Source: Sphaerochaeta sp. (GTDB lineage: Bacteria; Spirochaetota; Spirochaetia; Sphaerochaetales; Sphaerochaetaceae). Taken from it: DNA of 57,120 nucleotides. The DNA is taken from assembly GCA_004294855.1 (NCBI GenBank), contig SHOI01000002.1, forward strand, positions 9,850 to 66,969. The letters run 5' to 3'. How positions within the stretch are numbered: position 1 is the stretch's first letter; every line of letters starts with the position of its first letter. The position numbers were made by a program, and so were the translations under genes. Under the pieces are notes generated by a model that worked only from the letters and a program-made list of their open reading frames with translations, was not told where the DNA came from and ran no database searches. Shown piece by piece: positions 583 through 12,745 of this stretch.

Positions 583-676
583 ATGGCAATCATAAATAAT
601 GCGCATAAATATGCCTAGAGGGATGACTTCAACCCTTGACAATCTCCTGCCCATTATCACATTCTACCCCTATGTC

Positions 677-713
677 TTGTAATCCATCGGATAGATTTGG
701 TATAAATATACAT
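677..713 (+). promoter_or_regulatory. promoter and palindromic operator of the TRAP operon
   Basis: A TTGTAA -35 (677-682) and a TATAAA -10 (701-706), 18 nt apart, precede the TRAP operon by about 95 nt. The -10 lies inside the perfect palindrome GTATA-AA-TATAC (700-711). The 16-nt string GTATAAATATACATTT (700-715) recurs exactly upstream of the KDG-type permease (5475-5490). An operator overlapping the -10 suggests repression by a dimeric regulator, whose gene I cannot identify in the window. Confidence 0.55.
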
Positions 714-801
714 TTAAACGTATGTGAGCCATCAGCCGCATGCAACGACACATACAGGAGAAACCGCTATGTTTCCCTGATATACAAGGAGGAACTTCCT
801 T

Positions 802-1791
802 ATGAAAAAATCACTCGTTTTTGCAATCATCCTTGCATTCGCACTGCTTGCAACGCCCGTATTCGCTGCAGGACAGGGGGAAGCGGCCAAAAGCACCGGC
901 TTTGATAAGAGCAAGTATTTTGTCACGGTCGCGACCGGACCGACCAGCGGTCTGTATTACCCGATCGGAGGAGCATTCAGCGCCCTCTATCAAAACCGGC
1001 TCGGGTATAAGTCTTCCGCCCAGGCAACCGGAGCATCCGCGGAAAACCTCACCCTACTGAAAGACGGCCGGGCCGAGGTCGCCATTCTGATGAGTGACGC
1101 TGTCGCCCAGGCGTATGAGGCGTACGGTCCCTATGAAGGCCAAAAACCGTTCAGTGAACTGAGAGCCCTTCTCGGCCTCTATCCGAACTACGTTCAGCTG
1201 GTCACCACCGACAAGACCGGGATCAAATCGTTCTATGATTTGAAAAACAAGCGCGTCGGCGTTGGAGCCCCCAACAGCGGCGTCGAGCTGAACGCCCGGC
1301 TGATGTACGAAGCGCACGGAATGACCTATGCCGACAGCAGGATCGATTATCTCAACTATGGAGAGGCGATCAATCAGCTGAAGAACAACCAGATGGATGC
1401 GGTGTTCGTCACCAGCGGCATACCGAACGCCACGATCATGGAACTCGGGACGGTCTCGAAGATCGTATTGATCCCCATCGACGGTGAAGGATTGGCAAAC
1501 CTGATGGCAAAGTACCCGTTCTTCACTCCCGAGATCATTCCCGCCGATACATATGACATGTATGGTGATGTCGCCACCGTTACCGTTCGGAACATTCTTG
1601 CAACCACCACGGCGATGCCTGAAGAGGCGGCGTATGAGTTGACGAAAGGCGTTTTTGAACACATTGCCGATATCCAGGCCTCCCACGCCACCGCGAAGAA
1701 GCACATCTCCTTTGAAAACAGTCATATCGGTGTCGGCATTCCTTTCCACGAAGGAGCCGAACGCTACTATCGTGAGATGGGCTGGAAATAA
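802..1791 (+). CDS. TAXI-family TRAP transporter substrate-binding protein
   Basis: This 329-residue exported protein is the periplasmic receptor of a TRAP transporter of the TAXI class. It opens with a signal peptide (MKKSLVFAIILAFALLATPVFA) followed by mature sequence starting near AAGQGE. The segment TVATGPTSGLYYPIGGAFS near residues 40-60 is the hallmark TAXI glycine-rich motif, and KRVGVGAPNSGVE around residue 150 is also typical. A strong AAGGAGG ribosome site at about 786-792 supports the start at 802. It is the first gene of a three-gene operon whose stop codon abuts the DUF1850 start. TAXI receptors usually bind organic acids such as glutamate or other carboxylates; the ligand here is unknown. 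A promoter with a palindromic operator lies upstream. Confidence 0.92.
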   Translation: MKKSLVFAIILAFALLATPVFAAGQGEAAKSTGFDKSKYFVTVATGPTSGLYYPIGGAFSALYQNRLGYKSSAQATGASAENLTLLKDGRAEVAILMSDAVAQAYEAYGPYEGQKPFSELRALLGLYPNYVQLVTTDKTGIKSFYDLKNKRVGVGAPNSGVELNARLMYEAHGMTYADSRIDYLNYGEAINQLKNNQMDAVFVTSGIPNATIMELGTVSKIVLIPIDGEGLANLMAKYPFFTPEIIPADTYDMYGDVATVTVRNILATTTAMPEEAAYELTKGVFEHIADIQASHATAKKHISFENSHIGVGIPFHEGAERYYREMGWK

Positions 1792-2298
1792 ATGAAGATA
1801 AGAGTGGCATTGTTGCTGCTCGTTCCGGTGCTGCTTCTTCTTGGAGGAGCAGCATGCCGAATTCGGATGAGCGAGGATCCGGTGATTCGGGTCCGTGATC
1901 AGGAGCACGGCACCGTCCTCGCTTCGATGCCGGTGAAGGCAGGAGACGATCTCGTGTTCGAATGGATTCATTCCTATGAACATATTCCGTGGATTGAAGA
2001 GTATACGATCACCGAAGATCTTGCCTTCCGCCTTGATGCGATCCGGGTCGCCGGCTTTGGAGCGGGAATCCCCAACGACAAAGGGGAGACTACCGTTGAA
2101 AACGGCATGGTGGTCATGCGGAATATCAATGAAACGTTTCCCTCTTTCGCTTGGATCCACTCAGAGACCGCGTTGGTTTCGATAACGGTTGGAGGCAAAA
2201 CCCTGATTGAAGGAGGGGACCTCCCCCACCACAAAGCGGTCACGTTGACATTGGAAGGAATACAGCGCCTATGGACAAAATCTCCCTCAACAATTTGA
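1792..2298 (+). CDS. DUF1850 protein of TAXI-TRAP operon
   Basis: This 168-residue protein matches the DUF1850 family, which is routinely encoded between a TAXI binding protein and the fused TRAP permease. An N-terminal hydrophobic stretch (residues 5-20) ends in GGAAC, which could be a loose spirochaetal lipobox, so the protein may be a lipoprotein or a membrane-anchored periplasmic protein. The family signature FEWIHSYEHIPWIEEY (about residues 44-60) corresponds to the usual WxHSVExxPWxE motif. The ATG follows the previous stop codon without a gap, so translational coupling is likely, and its 3' end overlaps the permease start by 28 nt. The family's molecular role is not established; an accessory role in TAXI-TRAP transport is inferred from context. 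Confidence 0.85.
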   Translation: MKIRVALLLLVPVLLLLGGAACRIRMSEDPVIRVRDQEHGTVLASMPVKAGDDLVFEWIHSYEHIPWIEEYTITEDLAFRLDAIRVAGFGAGIPNDKGETTVENGMVVMRNINETFPSFAWIHSETALVSITVGGKTLIEGGDLPHHKAVTLTLEGIQRLWTKSPSTI

Positions 2299-4220
2299 AT
2301 CAAGAGCAGGAATTGAAACAACAAGAGATTCTCGAGCAGTTTGAGAAGGAATCGACAACGCGCAAATTCGATTCATACGCCCTCGTCAACGGAATCTACT
2401 GGATCTCGATCGCAATCGCTCTCTATCACTTCATTACCGCAGCCGTCGGCTATCCGGCGACCCACCTCCACCGAAGTCTCCACGTCGCAATGATGCTGTT
2501 CATGACGTTTTTTCTTTATCCCATTGGAAAAAAATCCAGTCGAAAAACGATTCCCTGGTATGATATCGCCTTAGCCCTCGCTTCAATCGCGGTGGCGGTG
2601 TATGTATGGGTCGATTACGTCGGGTTCATCAACCGGATGGGCTCTCCGAACCTCATCGATGTGATCTTCGGTACGATGCTCATTATTCTCGTTCTTGAGG
2701 CATCCAGAAGAATCAGCGGGTGGCCGCTGGTGATTCTTTCCCTGATCTTCATCCTGTACGGACTTGTCGGCCGAAGCCTTCCGGGAATCTTCATGCACCG
2801 GGGATACGATTGGAGGGCGATCGTCAACCACGCCTTCATCAACACCGAAGGAATCTACGGAACCAGCGTCGATGTCGCCGCTTCCTATATCTTCCTCTTC
2901 ATCCTCTTCGGTACGATTATGAACAAATGCGGAATGGGGCGGTTCTTCAACGACCTCGCCCTCGCCTTCGCCGGCTCCACCAAAGGTGGCCCCGCCAAGG
3001 TTGCGGTCATCGCCAGCGGTCTGCTCGGTTCGATCAACGGCAGTGCAGTGGCCAACGTGGTAACCACCGGTACTTTCACGATTCCGCTGATGAAGAAGAG
3101 CGGCTACTCCAAAGAGTTCGCCGGAGCGGTCGAATCCTCGGCGAGTGTGGGCGGTCAGCTGTTGCCTCCGATCATGGGCGCCGCCGCCTTCATCATGGCG
3201 GAGATGCTCGGTGTAAAATATGGAACAATCGTCATCAGTGCTGCGATTCCCGCCCTGCTCTACTACCTCGGGATCATGGTTCAAGTCCAGCTTCGGGCAA
3301 ACAGGCGCGATTTAAAAGGACTTCCGAAGGAACAATTACCGAAAGTCCGTGACGTGCTGAAGGATCGGGGACATCTCCTCATTCCGATCGTTGTTCTTTT
3401 GTATCTGTTGCTGTTCAGCGGTCTTACCGTGATTTATTCGGCATTCTGGTCGATCGTGGCGACCATCGTCGTTTCCCAAACCCGCAAATCAACGCGAATG
3501 ACGATCAGGCAAATACTTGATGCATTTGCCGAGGGGACGACCGCCACGGTCTCCGTTGCTATCGCCTGTGCGGTCGTGGGCATCATCATTGCGATCGTGA
3601 GTCTTACGGGCTTTGGTTTGAACATGGCCAACGCGATCATCCAGCTCGGTCGGGCGAACCTGATGCTTACCTTGGTTCTCACGATGGTGACTTGCATGGT
3701 TCTGGGTATGGGCCTGCCTTCCATTCCCGCCTATCTCATCACCGCGAGCATGGCTGCTCCCGCGTTGATCAAGCTCGGCATTCCGGCTCTTGCAGCCCAC
3801 CTGTTCGTCTTCTACTTCGCGATGTTCGCCAACATCACTCCTCCGGTGGCTCTTGCATCCTTCGCTGCAGCGGGAATAAGCGGGGGCGACCCGATGAAGA
3901 CCGGTCTGCAGTCGGTCCGTCTTTCCTTGGCGGGATTCATCGTTCCCTACATCTTCGTGTACAATACCGCTCTCCTCTTGTTGGACACCACGCCTCTTGT
4001 CGCTCTGAGAGTCACAATCACCGCTATCATAGGGGTATCGATGATCGGCATGGCTACGGAGGGATTCGCCCTCACGGGCATGAAATGGATTGAACGCATC
4101 CTTGTCTTTGTCGGAGCGCTGCTCCTCATCACGGCGGATCCGATCCAGGACGCAGTTGGGTTTGTCATCCTGATTGTCATTCTCTTTTTTCAATTCAGGA
4201 AAAAACGAAGAACTGCCTGA
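2271..4220 (+). CDS. TRAP transporter fused permease (4TM/12TM)
   Basis: This 649-residue inner-membrane protein fuses the small (DctQ-like) and large (DctM-like) TRAP permease subunits, as is normal in TAXI systems. A charged cytoplasmic N-terminus of about 50 residues precedes some 16-18 hydrophobic segments. The GSINGSAVANVVTTGTFTIPLMKKSGYS block (around residues 255-280) and the GMGLPSIPAYLITASMAAPAL block (around 480-500) are the conserved DctM substrate and sodium-site regions. It should use a sodium gradient to import the acid delivered by the receptor encoded at 802. The start overlaps the DUF1850 gene by 28 nt; a slightly later start is possible, since the first ~30 residues are not conserved in appearance. 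A strong hairpin terminator follows at 4228. Confidence 0.93.
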   Translation: MDKISLNNLNQEQELKQQEILEQFEKESTTRKFDSYALVNGIYWISIAIALYHFITAAVGYPATHLHRSLHVAMMLFMTFFLYPIGKKSSRKTIPWYDIALALASIAVAVYVWVDYVGFINRMGSPNLIDVIFGTMLIILVLEASRRISGWPLVILSLIFILYGLVGRSLPGIFMHRGYDWRAIVNHAFINTEGIYGTSVDVAASYIFLFILFGTIMNKCGMGRFFNDLALAFAGSTKGGPAKVAVIASGLLGSINGSAVANVVTTGTFTIPLMKKSGYSKEFAGAVESSASVGGQLLPPIMGAAAFIMAEMLGVKYGTIVISAAIPALLYYLGIMVQVQLRANRRDLKGLPKEQLPKVRDVLKDRGHLLIPIVVLLYLLLFSGLTVIYSAFWSIVATIVVSQTRKSTRMTIRQILDAFAEGTTATVSVAIACAVVGIIIAIVSLTGFGLNMANAIIQLGRANLMLTLVLTMVTCMVLGMGLPSIPAYLITASMAAPALIKLGIPALAAHLFVFYFAMFANITPPVALASFAAAGISGGDPMKTGLQSVRLSLAGFIVPYIFVYNTALLLLDTTPLVALRVTITAIIGVSMIGMATEGFALTGMKWIERILVFVGALLLITADPIQDAVGFVILIVILFFQFRKKRRTA

Positions 4221-4227
4221 ATATACG

Positions 4228-4253
4228 AAACCCCCTCGCTTTTGAGGGGGTTT
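4228..4253 (+). terminator. rho-independent terminator of TRAP operon
   Basis: AAACCCCCTC pairs perfectly with GAGGGGGTTT around a GCTTTT loop, eight nt after the permease stop codon. The flanking A and T runs make it usable from both strands, so it may also serve the convergent minus-strand gene at 4270. Confidence 0.85.
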
Positions 4254-4269
4254 ACTTGGCTGATCCATG

Positions 4270-4794
4270 TTATTTGGAAAGTGTCCAAATCGCCGAGTGT
4301 CCTTTTCCATCTCCGCGGCACGGTGGGAATCTTTTTCCTACAACCATTTCAACGGTTCGATCGGGGTGTTCGGAACAATGGTACGTCCCATCCTCCACGC
4401 AGTAGCGTCCGGTTCGGGTTGTGATACCGTCATCCGGCGCAGCCGCTTTTTTAGCTTTTGGTTTTTTAGCTGCTTCGGTTTTCTTAGCCTCTTCAGCTTT
4501 CTTTGCTTCTTCCGCCTTTTTAGCTTCTTCAGCTTTTCGTTTGGTTTCTTCCGGCTTCTGTTTTTCGACTGATGCTTTTGCTGCTTGTCTTGCATCATCT
4601 TTTTTGGATGTAACGTCGTCTTTTTTTAACCATTCAACAATTGCCAAAACAGCAAATGCGATGATTGTAAGGATAATCAAGATTACTTTAGCCGTTACAT
4701 TGGGGATAAAAAGTGCAAAGAGAATGATGAGGATTGCAGCACCAAGGACATAAAGTCGAGCTCGTTTGTGAAAGTGCTCTAACTGTGTTCGCAT
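4270..4794 (-). CDS. two-TM protein with Lys/Glu/Ala-rich linker and Cys/His tail
   Basis: I do not recognise a named family for this 174-residue protein. The start at 4794 is chosen because AGGAG lies seven nt upstream; a longer reading frame to 4863 has no such site. After a short basic N-terminus there are two closely spaced membrane segments (about residues 12-55). A low-complexity linker follows with repeated AEEAKK units (about residues 85-125, encoded by imperfect 15-nt repeats). The C-terminal ~45 residues contain RYCVEDGTYHCSEHPDRT and KRFPPCRGDGKGHSAIW. This resembles the GxYxC...G..FPPC knuckle of small zinc-binding tails, but the usual second CxxC is absent. The tail probably faces the cytoplasm on a flexible stalk. 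Function unknown. Confidence 0.6.
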   Translation of the reverse strand: MRTQLEHFHKRARLYVLGAAILIILFALFIPNVTAKVILIILTIIAFAVLAIVEWLKKDDVTSKKDDARQAAKASVEKQKPEETKRKAEEAKKAEEAKKAEEAKKTEAAKKPKAKKAAAPDDGITTRTGRYCVEDGTYHCSEHPDRTVEMVVGKRFPPCRGDGKGHSAIWTLSK

Positions 4795-4954
4795 TTTTAT
4801 TCTCCTATTTCTTGCTTTGTGCCCTAATCGATATAGTACACTCCTTAAACATAACCAATTCACACCGGAATCTCAAGGCAACTACTCCAAATTGAGTCTC
4901 TTTTGAAAAAAGCGGAGAATGATATGTCGTGCAGGAGTTGAAGGTTCCTGGATG

Positions 4955-5377
4955 TCATTCCGAAATAGACAAGGAAAGCAGGAATGGATCGCCTTCATCA
5001 TTTTCTACCCAGACGAGAAGACCGATAAGCGGCTTTGGGGAAAACATTCTAAAGGGGATTTCTACAAGTGCGCCAATTTTTACCGGCTTACCGATTTGCA
5101 GCTCCTCAGAAGGAAGATAGCTGGAGAGAAGATGGTCGTAGGTATGAACAAACCCCTGTCTCATTCCCTCGGGGATATAGGTTTCAACCCAGGCCGGAGT
5201 ATAGGGTTCTTTCAACGCTTCGAGGCTCTGCTCCTCGATACTGTTTTCTGCGGGCTCGATGATTTGACCGATGTAAAAATCCACCGGAAGCTTATAGGAA
5301 AACGCCTCTTCCAATGAAGCGGCTCCTATGCCCGGTGCGGACACTGCCAGTATGAGAAACAAAAGCACCCGTTTCAT
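4955..5377 (-). CDS. small secreted protein of unknown function
   Basis: This 140-residue protein begins MKRVLLFLILAVSAPGIGA, a clear signal peptide, and a GGAGGG site five nt upstream supports the start at 5377 over the longer frame beginning at 5488. The mature part contains YKLPVDFYIGQIIEPAENS and PFRMFSPKPLIGLLVWVEN with no cysteine and no recognisable domain. It is transcribed away from the KDG-type permease; the 134-nt divergent region carries the palindromes listed for that promoter, so shared control is possible. Likely periplasmic. I cannot assign a function. Confidence 0.6.
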   Translation of the reverse strand: MKRVLLFLILAVSAPGIGAASLEEAFSYKLPVDFYIGQIIEPAENSIEEQSLEALKEPYTPAWVETYIPEGMRQGFVHTYDHLLSSYLPSEELQIGKPVKIGALVEIPFRMFSPKPLIGLLVWVENDEGDPFLLSLSISE

Positions 5378-5451
5378 CCACCCTCCATCAAGTAAACAAT
5401 CATCTTTTGTGTTGGTTACATTCCTCGGGTTTCCTATCTCAATATTTCTGG

Positions 5452-5490
5452 ACATTCTCAAGGAATGTGATAATGTATAAATATACATTT
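5452..5490 (+). promoter_or_regulatory. promoter and two inverted repeats upstream of KDG-type permease
   Basis: An extended -10 (TGT-GATAAT, 5466-5474) is followed directly by a perfect 16-bp palindrome, ATGTATA-AA-TATACAT (5473-5488), sharing GTATAAATATACATTT with the TRAP operon promoter. Just upstream lies a second inverted repeat, ACATTC-TCAAG-GAATGT (5452-5468). A strong ribosome site AAGGAGG (5498-5504) follows. The layout suggests repression at the transcription start, perhaps with a second regulator upstream. Confidence 0.55.
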
Positions 5491-5511: not shown

Positions 5512-6540
5512 ATGAAAATGGGAAAGGTTCCAATTCTCGACACGATCAACAAAATCCCGGGTGGATTGATGGTTGTCCCGCTGGTATTAGGCGTTCTCAC
5601 AAACACATTCTTTCCCGAAGTCTTGAACATTGGTAGTTTCACGACTGCCTTCTTCAAGAACGGCGCGTTGACGTTGATCGCATTGCTCTTCCTCTGCAGC
5701 GGAGCCCAGATCAACCTGAAAACCGCCGGTGTTGCGGTATACAAGGGTGTCGTCCTCAACACAAGCAAGGTGCTCTTCGGTGTTTTTCTTGGTGTCATTT
5801 TCGCAAAGGTCGCCGGTCCTCAGGCTGCCTTCCTCGGTGTCACTCCTCTGGCGATGATCAGCGCGATGTCCAACTCAAACGGAGGACTCTACACCGCTCT
5901 TGCCTCGAAGTACGGAGATGAATCCGACGTTGGTGCGATTGCAATCATCTCTTCCAATGACGGACCGTTCTTCGAGATGATGTTCATGGGAATCGCCGGT
6001 GTCGCAAATATTCCGATCGTCGCCCTGATCGCCGTCATCGTTCCGATCATCGTCGGCATGATTCTGGGCAATCTGGACGAAAAGTTCCGCGAATTCCTGA
6101 AACCCGGTATGTTCATCGCGATCTTCACCTTCTCCTTCCCCCTTGGTGCCGGATTGAGTCTGCAGACCCTCGGACAGGCGGGATTGCCGGGTATTCTCCT
6201 GGGTCTTTTAACCCTGTTGATTACCGGAGTGCCCTCCTACTTTGTCTATCGGCTCCTGATCCCCAAGAGGATGCGAGTAACCAGCGCTGTCGGAGCCGGT
6301 GTCGGAACCACGGCGGGAAACGCTCTGGCGACCCCCGCGGCGATCGCCCTTGTCGACCCCGCATGGGCTCCCTATGTCGATAAAGCGACGATTCAGGTGG
6401 CCGCTTCGATCGTTGTAACGGCGATTCTGGTTCCCTTCCTCGTCGACTTCTTCTACAAGTATGAGCTCAAGCGAGGTCTTGTGACCCGTCCCATCGCCGA
6501 TGTCGGTGGAAAGATCGAAGACCTCGGTGAGCAACTCTAG
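5512..6540 (+). CDS. kdgT: 2-keto-3-deoxygluconate permease family transporter
   Basis: This 342-residue inner-membrane protein matches the KdgT family of 2-keto-3-deoxygluconate:cation symporters. Around ten hydrophobic segments are visible. Family-like blocks are the opening VPILDTINKIPGGLMVVPL, the AMSNSNGGLYTALASKYG block near residue 120, and GVGTTAGNALATPAAIALVDP near residue 265. The start at 5512 is chosen over an upstream ATG at 5407 because AAGGAGG lies seven nt before it. A hairpin terminator separates it from the LarA-like gene 77 nt downstream on the same strand. Beside a LarA-type racemase and the PdxA2/DUF1537 pair, it could import a sugar acid other than 2-keto-3-deoxygluconate; the substrate is inference. 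The symbol marks the family, not a proven substrate. Confidence 0.85.
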   Translation: MKMGKVPILDTINKIPGGLMVVPLVLGVLTNTFFPEVLNIGSFTTAFFKNGALTLIALLFLCSGAQINLKTAGVAVYKGVVLNTSKVLFGVFLGVIFAKVAGPQAAFLGVTPLAMISAMSNSNGGLYTALASKYGDESDVGAIAIISSNDGPFFEMMFMGIAGVANIPIVALIAVIVPIIVGMILGNLDEKFREFLKPGMFIAIFTFSFPLGAGLSLQTLGQAGLPGILLGLLTLLITGVPSYFVYRLLIPKRMRVTSAVGAGVGTTAGNALATPAAIALVDPAWAPYVDKATIQVAASIVVTAILVPFLVDFFYKYELKRGLVTRPIADVGGKIEDLGEQL

Positions 6541-6597: not shown

Positions 6598-6617
6598 ACC
6601 TTGTCAAGGAGATGCCT

Positions 6618-7967
6618 ATGAAGGTGATTAACCCGATCGATCCCATGAAGAAGGAATTAATTCTTCCTGATACAACGGCTGTGTATGCCATGAAAGCCCC
6701 GCCGGCGCTGGTAAACGCTGACAAGGCGATCATGGATGCGCTCAACAATCCGATTGAAAGCGAAAGTCTGGCTGCAATAGCCAAAGCCAAACTTGCTGTC
6801 AACAAGGATGCGACCGCCGTCATCGTCATCAGTGACAACACCCGTCCGGTTCCCTATAAAGGTGAAGGAAATATTTTGACACCGATTATTCAAGTGCTCT
6901 TTGATGCCGGATTCAAGGCGGACAGGGTCACAGCCCTCGTATCGACGGGAACCCACCGACCGATGACCGATGAAGAGCTGGAGGCGGTTATCGACCCATG
7001 GGTCTATGAACAAGGGGTCCGAGTGGTCAACCATGACTGTTTGGACGATGATGGATTGACCTACCTTGGAAAGACCGAGCGCGGAAGTGAAGTGTGGATC
7101 AGCTCCCTGTATCTTCAAAGCGACTTGAAGATCCTCACCGGCCTGGTGGAAAGCCACTTCATGGCGGGAGTGAGCGGAGGACGAAAATCCATTTGTCCGG
7201 GTTTGATCAGTGAAATGGGTACGTTCCTGTTCCATGGAGCCCCGATGATGGGTCATCCCGATTCCCGTGATCTCCTTCTGGAAGGAAACCCGGTCCACGA
7301 AGAATCCCTTGCCTTTGCAAAAATGGCGGGATCGGATTTCATCGTGAATGTTACGTTGGATCATGCGTTCAAGATCACGGGAATCTATGCCGGAGACATG
7401 GAAGCCGCTCACCTGGCCGCTTTTGAAATGATTCGCGGGTATGCAAAAATTCCCATCGAATCTGAAGCCGATATCGTCGTAACCCATGCGGGGTTCGTCG
7501 GCATCAACCATTATCAGAGCGCCAAAGCTGCGTTCGCCGCGATTGGGGCAATGAAGGAAAACGGATATCTCATCAGTATCGCCAATTATACCGACAAGAA
7601 AGATATTGTCGGATCGGTAAACTACAAAACGGTCCTGGCGATCCTGGCGAACCATGGGTCGAAGGCGCTGGTGAAGCTTCTTCACTCCCCGGATTGGCCT
7701 TTCACCCCCGACCAGTGGCAGGTGCAGAAGTGGGCTGCCGCCTTTGACAAGATTCCACTGGACCACTACTACCACTATGCTCCTCAAATTGAGGCGGGCA
7801 GGGAAGCGGGTCTTCCGGGCATCAATGCCGCCAAACTTACCGACAAGCGGGATTACACCAGTGTCGTCAAAGCGGCAATCGAGGATATCTACAGGCGCGA
7901 AGGAACCCGCGATCTGACGATTCTTTATCTCAGCGATGGTCCATACGCCATACCGTATGTGAAGTGA
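6618..7967 (+). CDS. larA: LarA-type nickel-pincer hydroxyacid racemase/epimerase
   Basis: This 449-residue cytoplasmic protein belongs to the LarA (DUF2088) superfamily, which uses a covalently bound nickel-pincer nucleotide for hydride-transfer racemisation or epimerisation at the alpha carbon of hydroxyacids. Expected active-site blocks are present: SDNTRPVP (substrate Arg), STGTHRPMTDEE (His), VESHFMAGVSGGRKSICPG (His and the cofactor-bearing Lys) and FHGAPMMGHPDSR (His/Arg). AAGGAG is immediately before ATG 6612 but six nt before ATG 6618, so 6618 is preferred. The cofactor genes larB, larC and larE are not in this window. Context (KdgT-type permease upstream, PdxA2/DUF1537 convergent) suggests a sugar acid such as a tetronate rather than lactate, but LarA homologues vary widely in substrate. 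The symbol denotes the family. Confidence 0.87.
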   Translation: MKVINPIDPMKKELILPDTTAVYAMKAPPALVNADKAIMDALNNPIESESLAAIAKAKLAVNKDATAVIVISDNTRPVPYKGEGNILTPIIQVLFDAGFKADRVTALVSTGTHRPMTDEELEAVIDPWVYEQGVRVVNHDCLDDDGLTYLGKTERGSEVWISSLYLQSDLKILTGLVESHFMAGVSGGRKSICPGLISEMGTFLFHGAPMMGHPDSRDLLLEGNPVHEESLAFAKMAGSDFIVNVTLDHAFKITGIYAGDMEAAHLAAFEMIRGYAKIPIESEADIVVTHAGFVGINHYQSAKAAFAAIGAMKENGYLISIANYTDKKDIVGSVNYKTVLAILANHGSKALVKLLHSPDWPFTPDQWQVQKWAAAFDKIPLDHYYHYAPQIEAGREAGLPGINAAKLTDKRDYTSVVKAAIEDIYRREGTRDLTILYLSDGPYAIPYVK

Positions 7968-8033: not shown

Positions 8034-8999
8034 TTAGAGCTTCTTTCCCAACTCAATCGCCTTGAGCATGCTCTGTTCACTGGCGATCAGCTTGTCGGCG
8101 ATGTCGAACGCCGTGCCATGATCGACACTGGTCCGCACCACGTCAAGACCGACGGTGATGTTCACCCCGTCATCAAACGCCAGGAGTTTGAGGGGGATGT
8201 GCCCTTGGTCATGGTACATCACCACCACGATATCCCAATCCCCTTTGATCGCCCGGAGAAACACGGTATCGGGAGCGATCGGGCCGGTTACATCATGGCC
8301 TTCTTTTTTTGCCGCCTCGATCGCCGGAATGATCTGTCGAATCTCCTCATCGCCGAAGAGCCCGTTCTCCCCTGCATGGGGATTGAGGCCCGCCACGGCG
8401 ATCCTCGGATGAGGGTATCCGAACTTCTTCATCGTCTCCGCACCAAGCCGGATGACCTCCAGAACGCGCTTCTTCGTCACAGCGTCGCACGCGCTTCTCA
8501 GGCTTTGATGGGTTGAAACGTGGATGACCGTCAGCTTGGGACTGGAGAGGAGCATTGCGTAGGAATCCCCTTTGGCGTAGTGGGCGAAGATTTCCGTGTG
8601 GCCGGCAAACCGGTGTCCCGCCAGATGAAGCGCTTCCTTGTTCAAGGGAGCGGTGATTACGCTGCTGATCTCCTTTCTCCGGGCAAACTCGATCGCCGTT
8701 CGCACCGCTTCAAAGGCGACTTCCCCGCCCAACGCGCTCACCTTTCCGATAAGGACGTCCTCAAGCTTGACCGGATGGGGATCCACGACATTGATCATCC
8801 CCATTTTGAACTCTTCGATTGTTTCGATCACGTTGAAGGTGAAGTTCGCTTTCAATCGTTTGTTGTAATACTCCAGCACTGAAAGGGGACCGAAGAGGAG
8901 CGCTTCCCTTTGATAGGAAGGTTCCTTCAGCAACGCTTTTATGGTGACTTCGATGCCGATCCCACAGGGATCGCCCAAGGTAATGCCAAAGATTTTCAT
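8034..8999 (-). CDS. pdxA2: PdxA2-type 4-phospho-threonate/erythronate dehydrogenase
   Basis: This 321-residue protein is a PdxA-family NAD-dependent, metal-dependent oxidative decarboxylase. The opening GITLGDPCGIGIEV and the metal-ligand histidines in AGHTEIF, VSTH and MYHDQGHIPLK are all present, with the substrate-binding LNPHAGENGLFGDEE block. Classical PdxA makes pyridoxal phosphate precursor, but the gene overlaps by 4 nt a DUF1537 kinase. That pairing defines PdxA2, which oxidises 4-phospho-D-threonate or 4-phospho-D-erythronate; decarboxylation then gives dihydroxyacetone phosphate. It is translationally coupled to the kinase (ATGA overlap) as the second gene of a two-gene minus-strand operon. 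A role in vitamin B6 synthesis cannot be excluded because no pdxJ is in view. Confidence 0.85.
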   Translation of the reverse strand: MKIFGITLGDPCGIGIEVTIKALLKEPSYQREALLFGPLSVLEYYNKRLKANFTFNVIETIEEFKMGMINVVDPHPVKLEDVLIGKVSALGGEVAFEAVRTAIEFARRKEISSVITAPLNKEALHLAGHRFAGHTEIFAHYAKGDSYAMLLSSPKLTVIHVSTHQSLRSACDAVTKKRVLEVIRLGAETMKKFGYPHPRIAVAGLNPHAGENGLFGDEEIRQIIPAIEAAKKEGHDVTGPIAPDTVFLRAIKGDWDIVVVMYHDQGHIPLKLLAFDDGVNITVGLDVVRTSVDHGTAFDIADKLIASEQSMLKAIELGKKL

Positions 9000-10210
9000 A
9001 ATTGCCGTTCCTCCAAACGTCTCAGGCTATAGGTCAGTGCATCTTCCTTCCCGAAGCCCCCGGCCTTTGTAACGATTTTCATCCCCTGATAGGGTCCGTC
9101 AAGCACGAGAGTGATGGGAATTCCGATATCCACCTCTCCGATGATCTTCACTTCATTGATTCCCATCATCTGCATCAGCCCGAATGCGGTCTCACCGCCA
9201 CTGAGAAAGAGGTTTTTCACCCCGCTTGCTTTAATGATTTCCAAGGACACCTTCGAGAGGCAATCCTTTATCATCGTTCCGACAACAGCGTCCTTCAAGC
9301 CCAACGCTTTTCCCACCTCGATCGATTGTTGGAATACGGACCGATCCAGAGCTGAAGAGAGGGTGAGGATCAGATCCTCTCCCCCTTGGAGGATTTGTAC
9401 TCCTTGATCGATGATTGGAGTAAAGTCTCCCCCTTTGAGGATCGAAAGGACATCCACAGCAAGGATGGCGACCCCTCGACTCTTGGCGTAGTCAAGCTGC
9501 GCACGGCTTGCTTTGCTCAAGCTTGCGAGAATTGCAAGGGCCGGCTGTTTCGGACGGTCGTATTGGATCAGCGCTCCTGCCAAGCCGGCACTGCCGACAT
9601 ACAAAATTCGTTTATCAAGACCCCTCGCCCATTTGACCGTTTCAAAGAGATCGGCTTCATGCTCCGCGTCGCAGACGATGACCTGTACATCCTTGATGAG
9701 GGGAAATGCTTTGCTTCGGATCTCATCCACCGAGAGGTGAATGGTCGAATACTCGGAAGCAAAGAGGGTGATAAGATTATCCTCCGTTACCGGTTTGAGC
9801 GGATCGTGGGCAAACTCCGTATCCAAGAGCTTTACCGAGTTCACGAATACGGTTCCTCCGACGCAGGTTCGTCCCATCTGGCTGAACGCCGGGGCGACGA
9901 GAATAAGATCACTGTTCATTTTTTCGTCAATCGCCCGGATCTCTTCCAGAATATTCCCTCGAAGGGTCGAATCAATTTTTTTCAGGACGATGTCGTATGA
10001 GTCGATATCAAGGTCTTTGATGAGAGCCTTGGTCATCCTGTACGCCTCATCACCTTCTCTGTTTCGGGACTCCGTATCCAGGACATACGAGTCTACCGTC
10101 CCTTTCGGCGAAGAGAAGCCGATGATCGTGGAGAGCCCCCGATGAGCCAATTCAAGAGCACTGTCATTGGAACCCGTAAAATCGTCTGCGATAATCAGGT
10201 AGGTATTCAT
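8996..10210 (-). CDS. dtnK: four-carbon acid sugar kinase (DUF1537, D-threonate/erythronate kinase)
   Basis: This 404-residue protein belongs to the four-carbon acid sugar kinase family (former DUF1537), whose members phosphorylate D-threonate, D-erythronate or related acids at C4 using ATP. It opens with NTYLIIADDFTGSNDSAL, the family signature; the C-terminal nucleotide-binding domain has LFLSGGETAFGLM and DGPYQGMKIVTKAGGFG. The start at 10210 is set by that signature. There is no ribosome site, and a good promoter ends its -10 seven nt before the ATG, so the message is predicted to be leaderless. The 3' end overlaps pdxA2. Together they should convert a tetronate to dihydroxyacetone phosphate and CO2. 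The precise substrate stereochemistry is not readable from sequence. Confidence 0.85.
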   Translation of the reverse strand: MNTYLIIADDFTGSNDSALELAHRGLSTIIGFSSPKGTVDSYVLDTESRNREGDEAYRMTKALIKDLDIDSYDIVLKKIDSTLRGNILEEIRAIDEKMNSDLILVAPAFSQMGRTCVGGTVFVNSVKLLDTEFAHDPLKPVTEDNLITLFASEYSTIHLSVDEIRSKAFPLIKDVQVIVCDAEHEADLFETVKWARGLDKRILYVGSAGLAGALIQYDRPKQPALAILASLSKASRAQLDYAKSRGVAILAVDVLSILKGGDFTPIIDQGVQILQGGEDLILTLSSALDRSVFQQSIEVGKALGLKDAVVGTMIKDCLSKVSLEIIKASGVKNLFLSGGETAFGLMQMMGINEVKIIGEVDIGIPITLVLDGPYQGMKIVTKAGGFGKEDALTYSLRRLEERQL

Positions 10211-10217
10211 TTGATAC

Positions 10218-10246
10218 AGTATACTCCGTGACAGAGGTTTACACAA
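10218..10246 (-). promoter_or_regulatory. leaderless promoter of the tetronate kinase operon
   Basis: On the minus strand TTGTGT (10246-10241) and TATACT (10223-10218) are 17 nt apart, and the ATG begins seven nt after the -10, so transcription should start at or next to the start codon. No Shine-Dalgarno is present. It overlaps the promoter of the divergent HD gene. Confidence 0.6.
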
Positions 10247-10267
10247 ACTCATTTCATCAAGTACAGT
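10238..10267 (+). promoter_or_regulatory. probable leaderless promoter of the HD-domain gene
   Basis: TTTACA (10238-10243) and TACAGT (10262-10267), 18 nt apart, place the -10 eight nt before the ATG at 10276. The -35 shares bases with the divergent -35 on the other strand, so the two promoters probably compete. Confidence 0.45.
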
Positions 10268-12274: not shown

Positions 12275-12745
12275 AGATCCAGACTGTCCGGATTGAGCAA
12301 GAAGTCAAACAGATTGATGATCGGAATTTCTTCTTCATTCATCCATGCAGGAGAATTTCCACCTACAACGATTATTTTTTGAACGAGTCGGGAATCTGTA
12401 GCATTGAGATATACATTTCGCTCAATGATTCCTCTATTTTAAATATTTGCACATTGTGCAATAATTTTAAATACCATGCCTTGCTCTTGGTGTTTTCTCA
12501 ATAGCTGTCTTATATTTTTGCATATGTGACTTTTTTTTAAACTGGAAACCGGTTTTGACTGCAACCTTGCAGGTTCTCAACATATGAACATTCATATCTT
12601 TGTCAACCACCAACAATGCTCTGCAGCGGATCGCCGGCCATAGGTGTTTCGTTGCCCACCCAAATGCAACAATAGGATAGTGACATGAGACGGACTGCAG
12701 CTGTAATCGACTTTCCGGAAAGTGTGTAACACCTGTCCAATTCAT
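12271..12745 (-). pseudogene. decayed gene, family not identified
   Basis: On the minus strand a protein-like reading runs from MNWTGVTHFPESRL (ATG at 12745), through HYPIVAFGWATKHLWPAIRC and VVDKDMNVHMLRTCK, to an eight-base A run (plus-strand T run 12531-12538). A one-base shift there continues the sense reading (KNIRQLLRKHQEQGMVFKI). A TAA at 12441-12439 then interrupts it. Beyond the stop the frame reads NATDSRLVQKIIVVGGNSP and ends NLFDFLLNPDSLDL at a TAG at 12271. The ending is reminiscent of C-termini of some AAA-type ATP-binding proteins, but I cannot name the family. The 5' part may already be lost under the neighbouring plus-strand gene. This accounts for most of the 495-nt gap between ttcA and the next gene. 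Confidence 0.5.

Follow-up and report, generated by a model that had tools for sequence, protein, structure and literature searches.

Our study suggests that a palindrome shared by the promoters of two uptake operons in a 57 120-nt stretch of Sphaerochaeta DNA (hereafter the window) is an ARG box, the operator of the arginine repressor ArgR, and that both operons are under ArgR control; we put the probability of this reading at approximately 0.88. The operons encode a TAXI-TRAP transporter and a permease of the sugar-acid type, and it appears to be the arginine regulon, rather than a sugar-acid regulator, to which they are connected. The operator type and its regulator are well known, and it is the TAXI-TRAP and kdgT-larA operons that appear to be new regulon members. 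A literature search, which was not exhaustive, found no published ArgR control of TRAP transporters or of kdgT-larA, no link between LarAH enzymes and ArgR, and nothing on ArgR and TAXI proteins beyond a gene neighbourhood in Vibrio cholerae. Nor are the two operons among the targets that PMC5343134 names in its main text.

The string GTATAAATATAC was found at positions 700–711 and 5475–5486 of the window, which has a G+C content of ~52 %, and at both places it is enclosed in a shared 16-mer, GTATAAATATACATTT (700–715 and 5475–5490). An earlier, sequence-only reading of this DNA had reported the palindrome and the exact 16-nt string on both promoters; they are present and above chance, as six matches to the string were seen with at most two mismatches, compared to 0.71 expected. 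That reading had described the kdgT copy as a 16-bp palindrome, whereas it is a perfect palindrome of 18 nt (AATGTATA-AA-TATACATT). The TRAP operon has a further box of related sequence, the third in all, which lies 97 bp upstream of the 700 box and reads GCATA-AA-TATGC (603–614; listed as GCATAAATATGC when the genome was scanned). The kdgT site ends 8 nt before the Shine–Dalgarno sequence (5498) and 22 nt before the ATG (5512). The 700 copy had been proposed to overlap the −10 element of the TRAP operon, and by eye it does overlap a plausible extended −10 (TGGTATAAA; TGG-TATAAA, 701–706), 18 bp from a candidate −35 (TTGTAA, 677–682); however, neither this operon nor kdgT was given a sigma-70 promoter by a consensus scanner, so that the start point proposed for the permease at 5475 is only putative. 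The features of the window are given in Table 1.

Table 1. Predicted ARG boxes and the genes around them (positions are those of the window; bit scores of boxes are from the matrix built on arginine genes only)
Feature	Position	Strand	Evidence
Predicted ARG box 2, TAXI-TRAP operon, TGCGCATAAATATGCCTA	600..617	.	15.7 bits, third-best window match
Predicted ARG box 1, TAXI-TRAP operon, TTGGTATAAATATACATT	697..714	.	21.0 bits, second-best window match
TAXI-family TRAP solute-binding protein (TAXI1)	802..1791	+	TIGR02122, 331 bits, over cut-off
DUF1850 protein of TRAP operon	1792..2298	+	PF08905, 67 bits
Fused TRAP permease	2271..4220	+	TIGR02123, 754 bits, over cut-off
Predicted ARG box, kdgT-larA, perfect palindrome AATGTATAAATATACATT	5472..5489	.	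23.4 bits, best window match
KdgT-family permease	5512..6540	+	PF03812, 397 bits
LarA-like nickel-pincer 2-hydroxyacid racemase/epimerase	6612..7967	+	PF09861, PF21113
PdxA2-like dehydrogenase, convergent arm of sugar-acid block	8034..8999	-	TIGR00557, PRK03371
DUF1537/four-carbon-acid-sugar kinase (D-threonate-kinase-like)	8996..10252	-	PF07005/PF17042

Pattern searches of the whole genome (2.2 Mb in 270 contigs) revealed only three exact copies of GTATAAATATAC. Allowing one mismatch raised the number of places to 13, compared to one for the reversed control. The degenerate core GNATAWWTATNC was found at 17 places and its reversed control at none; when the neighbourhoods were read by hand, 14 of the 17 were upstream of genes and three within coding sequence. 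The exact copy outside the window precedes argG (argininosuccinate synthase), and one-mismatch or degenerate copies were found on argC, on argR and on two genes of a Lys/Arg/Orn-type ABC transporter, those for its solute-binding protein (SBP) and its permease. Among the matches listed in these searches were also boxes on argF (ornithine carbamoyltransferase; 17.6 bits) and on the SBP gene of a LIV-type ABC transporter (18.6 bits), and the same motif recurs genome-wide on argR, argC, argG and argF. The sequence-only reading had asked whether a one-mismatch scan would lead to sugar-acid genes and a GntR- or IclR-type regulator gene, and had held that frequent, randomly placed matches would count against an operator. 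Instead, the matches were few and mostly upstream of genes, among them arginine genes and those of the Lys/Arg/Orn-type transporter.

The genome encodes one full-length ArgR (PF01316 and PF02863; C225:7384–7581, minus strand). The earlier remark that the window holds no gene for the regulator is correct. The nearest solved homologues of this ArgR are AhrC/ArgR and the GDDT arginine-binding motif is kept, with a score slightly below the TIGR01529 cut-off (125.1 versus 130.45). In this genome, argR carries two boxes at a distance of 21 bp, through which it is predicted to control itself.

An 18-column, symmetric matrix was built only from the boxes upstream of argC, argG and argR in up to 25 Sphaerochaeta genomes, and was then used to score the window. 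The three boxes of Table 1 took the first three ranks and the next match scored 12.7 bits. Removing the window's own genome and the nearest argC/argG relative from the matrix left the ranks the same, at 23.3, 21.1 and 15.4 bits. A third-order Markov null, for which the window served as training sequence, predicts 0.27 sites of at least 21.1 bits and 0.07 sites of at least 23.3 bits per 2.2 Mb, and an AT-rich intergenic null gave ~9e-5 and ~9e-6 per 300 bp, respectively. By both matrices, the 18-bp palindrome fits the boxes that this group of organisms has on its genes for arginine biosynthesis. The proposal that one repressor controls both uptake systems thus gains in silico support, as the arginine-only matrix ranks the two sites best in the window.

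The canonical ArgR site of Escherichia coli comprises two 18-bp boxes with a 3-bp spacer, or 21 bp from centre to centre (PMC6640053). All Sphaerochaeta examined show this 21-bp spacing upstream of argR. The matrix also found pairs at 21–22 bp in front of argR in three spirochaete families outside its training set (L035, L037 and L038), which lends support to reading the motif as the ArgR box. Within the window, such pairs were not found, the kdgT box being single and the TRAP boxes 97 bp apart. This is not decisive, because the argG and argC boxes of the same genome are 63 bp apart and likewise not 21, and the binding arrangement here may differ from that of E. coli. The predicted regulon otherwise resembles that of E. 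coli (argCBH, artJ, artPIQM and hisJ) in its 18-bp imperfect palindrome with TGNAT...ATNCA arms, in boxes that overlap the promoters of arginine biosynthesis and transport, and in the autoregulation of argR (PMC6640053). Pairs at 21 bp are shared by argR, argC (21–22 bp) and several TAXI1 orthologues, in which a second box follows the first. The Sphaerochaeta half-sites differ in including ATGTATA and ATGCATA besides ATGAATA, and the boxes of the window's genome differ in their spacing of 63 or 97 bp, or in standing alone.

The matrix also picked sites without an evident arginine link, including three in coding regions, and part of its matches is false or unexplained. A 20.4-bit ARG-like palindrome, AATGAATATTTATTCGAT, lies ~46 nt upstream of the gene for an SLFN_AlbA_2/HATPase_c_4 protein (L158, G000:C47, 1413–1430), for which an arginine link is not evident, and ARG-like boxes precede operons with a ChvE-like multiple-sugar SBP (18.9 bits; L199, G000:C143, 2363–2380) and a DUF3798 SBP (12.6 bits; L166, G000:C89, 2332–2349). 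MetNI-like ABC genes adjoin argF with an 18.9-bit ARG box (L196, G000:C262, 1522–3208), which suggests that their ligand is arginine-related rather than methionine. In the window itself, an AT-rich intergenic stretch at 12436–12524 contains ARG-like matches of 12.4 and 10.3 bits and a 20-bp pair with a summed score of 17.2, and these weak matches probably reflect base composition. Elsewhere, the frames at 3474–4897 of L201 (G000:C252) translate to repeated SSPHARG/RMRGGVS segments, and these look like the translation of a CRISPR array.

The predicted control of the TRAP operon is conserved across the genus. Nineteen Sphaerochaeta TAXI1 loci had a readable start, and 18 of them offered 250 bp or more of upstream sequence. 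In 16 of the 18, an ARG box scoring 14 bits or more was found, a score expected ~0.01 times per 300 bp under the AT-rich null, although these are related genomes and the 16 cases are not independent. The exceptions were G022 (8.7 bits) and G011 (5.0 bits), the latter a close relative with a TAXI1 that is 93–95 % identical, in which only a −10-like TTGGTATAAT is left. Beyond the genus, the scan covered three further spirochaete families with six TAXI loci in all, five of which had no box of at least 12.5 bits. The sixth has a 16.4-bit ARG box ~84 nt upstream of its TAXI SBP gene (L204, G015:C59, 2592–2609), weakly hinting that ArgR control of TAXI transporters may extend outside Sphaerochaeta.

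A second TAXI-TRAP operon (TAXI2), in which the fused permease gene precedes the SBP gene, carries the predicted ARG box TTTGCATAATTATGCAAA (23.0 bits; L157, G000:C54, 287–304), which ends 14 nt before the predicted start codon of the permease. A box of 15–17 bits was found at this permease in five relatives (G022, G029, G028, G007 and G005), and none of at least 13 bits in the remaining relatives.

The kdgT-larA box has a narrower distribution. It was found in 2 of 19 kdgT orthologues, those of the window's genome (23.4 bits) and of G011 (23.8 bits), and was absent from the other 17, so that the predicted operator is lineage-specific. Between these two genomes, TGTATAAATATACAT is conserved at 15 of 15 positions, the flanks are strongly diverged and the third codon positions of kdgT are 72 % identical. 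The unchanged core can be read as a phylogenetic footprint and argues for a function in this lineage. Near the kdgT start of several other Sphaerochaeta (L054, L061, L064, L053, L063, L065 and L066), TTGTATACACAA-like or TTGTATACA strings were seen in place of the ARG box; these are possibly a GntR-type operator that has been replaced in the window's lineage.

The larA gene is in line with kdgT across a gap of 71 bp. The KdgT-family permease scored 206.9 bits with the 2-keto-3-deoxygluconate permease model TIGR00793, compared to an equivalog cut-off of 453.8 bits, and its substrate is therefore not assured. The DUF1537 kinase was likewise under the cut-off of NF047819, at 249 bits. As in the LarAH nickel-pincer racemase/epimerase systems (GntE etc.), the LarA-like gene adjoins genes for a sugar-acid permease, kinase and dehydrogenase; unlike in those systems, the LarA-like protein here falls under every LarAH equivalog cut-off. 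The scan of the window revealed no ARG box on the pdxA2-kinase arm. The earlier suggestion that the TRAP ligand is tied to the sugar-acid block finds no support in this pattern, in which the kdgT box is confined to two genomes, the pdxA2-kinase arm has no box, and the genus at large keeps the TRAP box but lacks the one at kdgT.

A GntR, IclR or other sugar-acid repressor acting on both sites, as the sequence-only reading had preferred, would co-ordinate the uptake of one sugar-acid-like ligand. The kdgT-larA and pdxA2-kinase genes do form a sugar-acid block that is conserved in most loci examined, and the palindrome-like TTGTATACACAA at the kdgT start of several Sphaerochaeta could be a GntR-type operator. 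However, the loci examined among relatives have no regulator gene next to the block, the relatives bearing TTGTATACACAA have TRAP boxes of the ARG kind, and the copies of the string in the window's own genome mark arginine genes and argR itself, which leaves this explanation very improbable. Even less credible is that both sites are AT-rich promoter (−10) sequence rather than operators. It is true that the 700 string holds TATAAA after TGG, and that G011 keeps a −10 there and has lost the palindrome, but three exact copies in 2.2 Mb, the contrast with the reversed control and the placement of the copies on arg genes led us to reject it; by chance, 0.27 sites would be expected per 2.2 Mb at the lower score.

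A different doubt concerns the kdgT site alone, which might be a fortuitous, lineage-specific match in an AT-rich start region, with no regulatory effect, beside a genuine ArgR operator at the TRAP operon. The permease is of a sugar-acid type without an evident arginine link, and its box, single rather than paired, is confined to two orthologues. Against this, the site is a perfect palindrome of 18 nt, its score is the highest in the window and would be expected ~1e-5 times per 300 bp, and its core is identical in G011 despite the divergence of flanks and synonymous sites. We consider a chance match here unlikely, and ArgR control of both operons the better reading.

Under ArgR control, arginine-bound ArgR would occupy the box over the promoter or start region when arginine is plentiful, and would lower transcription of the TAXI-TRAP operon (SBP, DUF1850 protein and fused permease) and of kdgT-larA. 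When arginine is scarce, both operons would be derepressed alongside arginine biosynthesis and arginine-type ABC uptake. As known for the family, ArgR would act as a hexamer and repress by promoter overlap. Binding by ArgR, repression as the sign of the effect and dependence on arginine are what we infer here; in other bacteria, ArgR is also an activator of some catabolic genes.

The VcGluPQM transporter of V. cholerae (VC0430-VC0429) is a glutamate-specific TAXI-TRAP with genes downstream of argR and mdh, for which the authors saw no support for co-regulation with argR, and loss of Q93 cost the most affinity among the binding residues of VcGluP (PMC11574862). Both systems combine a TAXI-type SBP with a TRAP permease, lying near argR in Vibrio and under predicted ARG boxes in Sphaerochaeta. 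The nearest solved structures to TAXI1 are 1us4/1us5, 8u79 and 4ddd. With the VcGluP numbering verified on the PDB chain sequence, TAXI1 was found to keep Y45 and S75, but Q93 is replaced by Met, in all orthologues aligned, and E125 by Asn; TAXI2 has none of the four residues (Val, Gly, Val and Asn at Y45, S75, Q93 and E125). The glutamate-type combination of Y45 and Q93 is thus found in neither protein, and with these changes a standard glutamate binder is predicted in neither case. For TAXI1, glutamate is disfavoured as the ligand by the Met at Q93 and the Asn at E125. The placement in the regulon tentatively suggests an arginine- or nitrogen-related TAXI ligand.

In summary, TAXI-TRAP transporters are widespread and few of their ligands are known. 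As a tentative proposal, the two Sphaerochaeta TAXI-TRAPs may belong to the arginine regulon and, with their non-glutamate sites, import an unrecognized arginine-related metabolite, and the ArgR of one lineage may have captured kdgT-larA, joining a 2-hydroxyacid racemase to arginine status. The conserved predicted ArgR operator offers a testable physiological handle, namely arginine or nitrogen status and ligands of the arginine pathway, for two TAXI-TRAPs in a spirochaete genus, and would redirect the search for their ligands from the adjoining sugar-acid genes, to which gene proximity alone would point.
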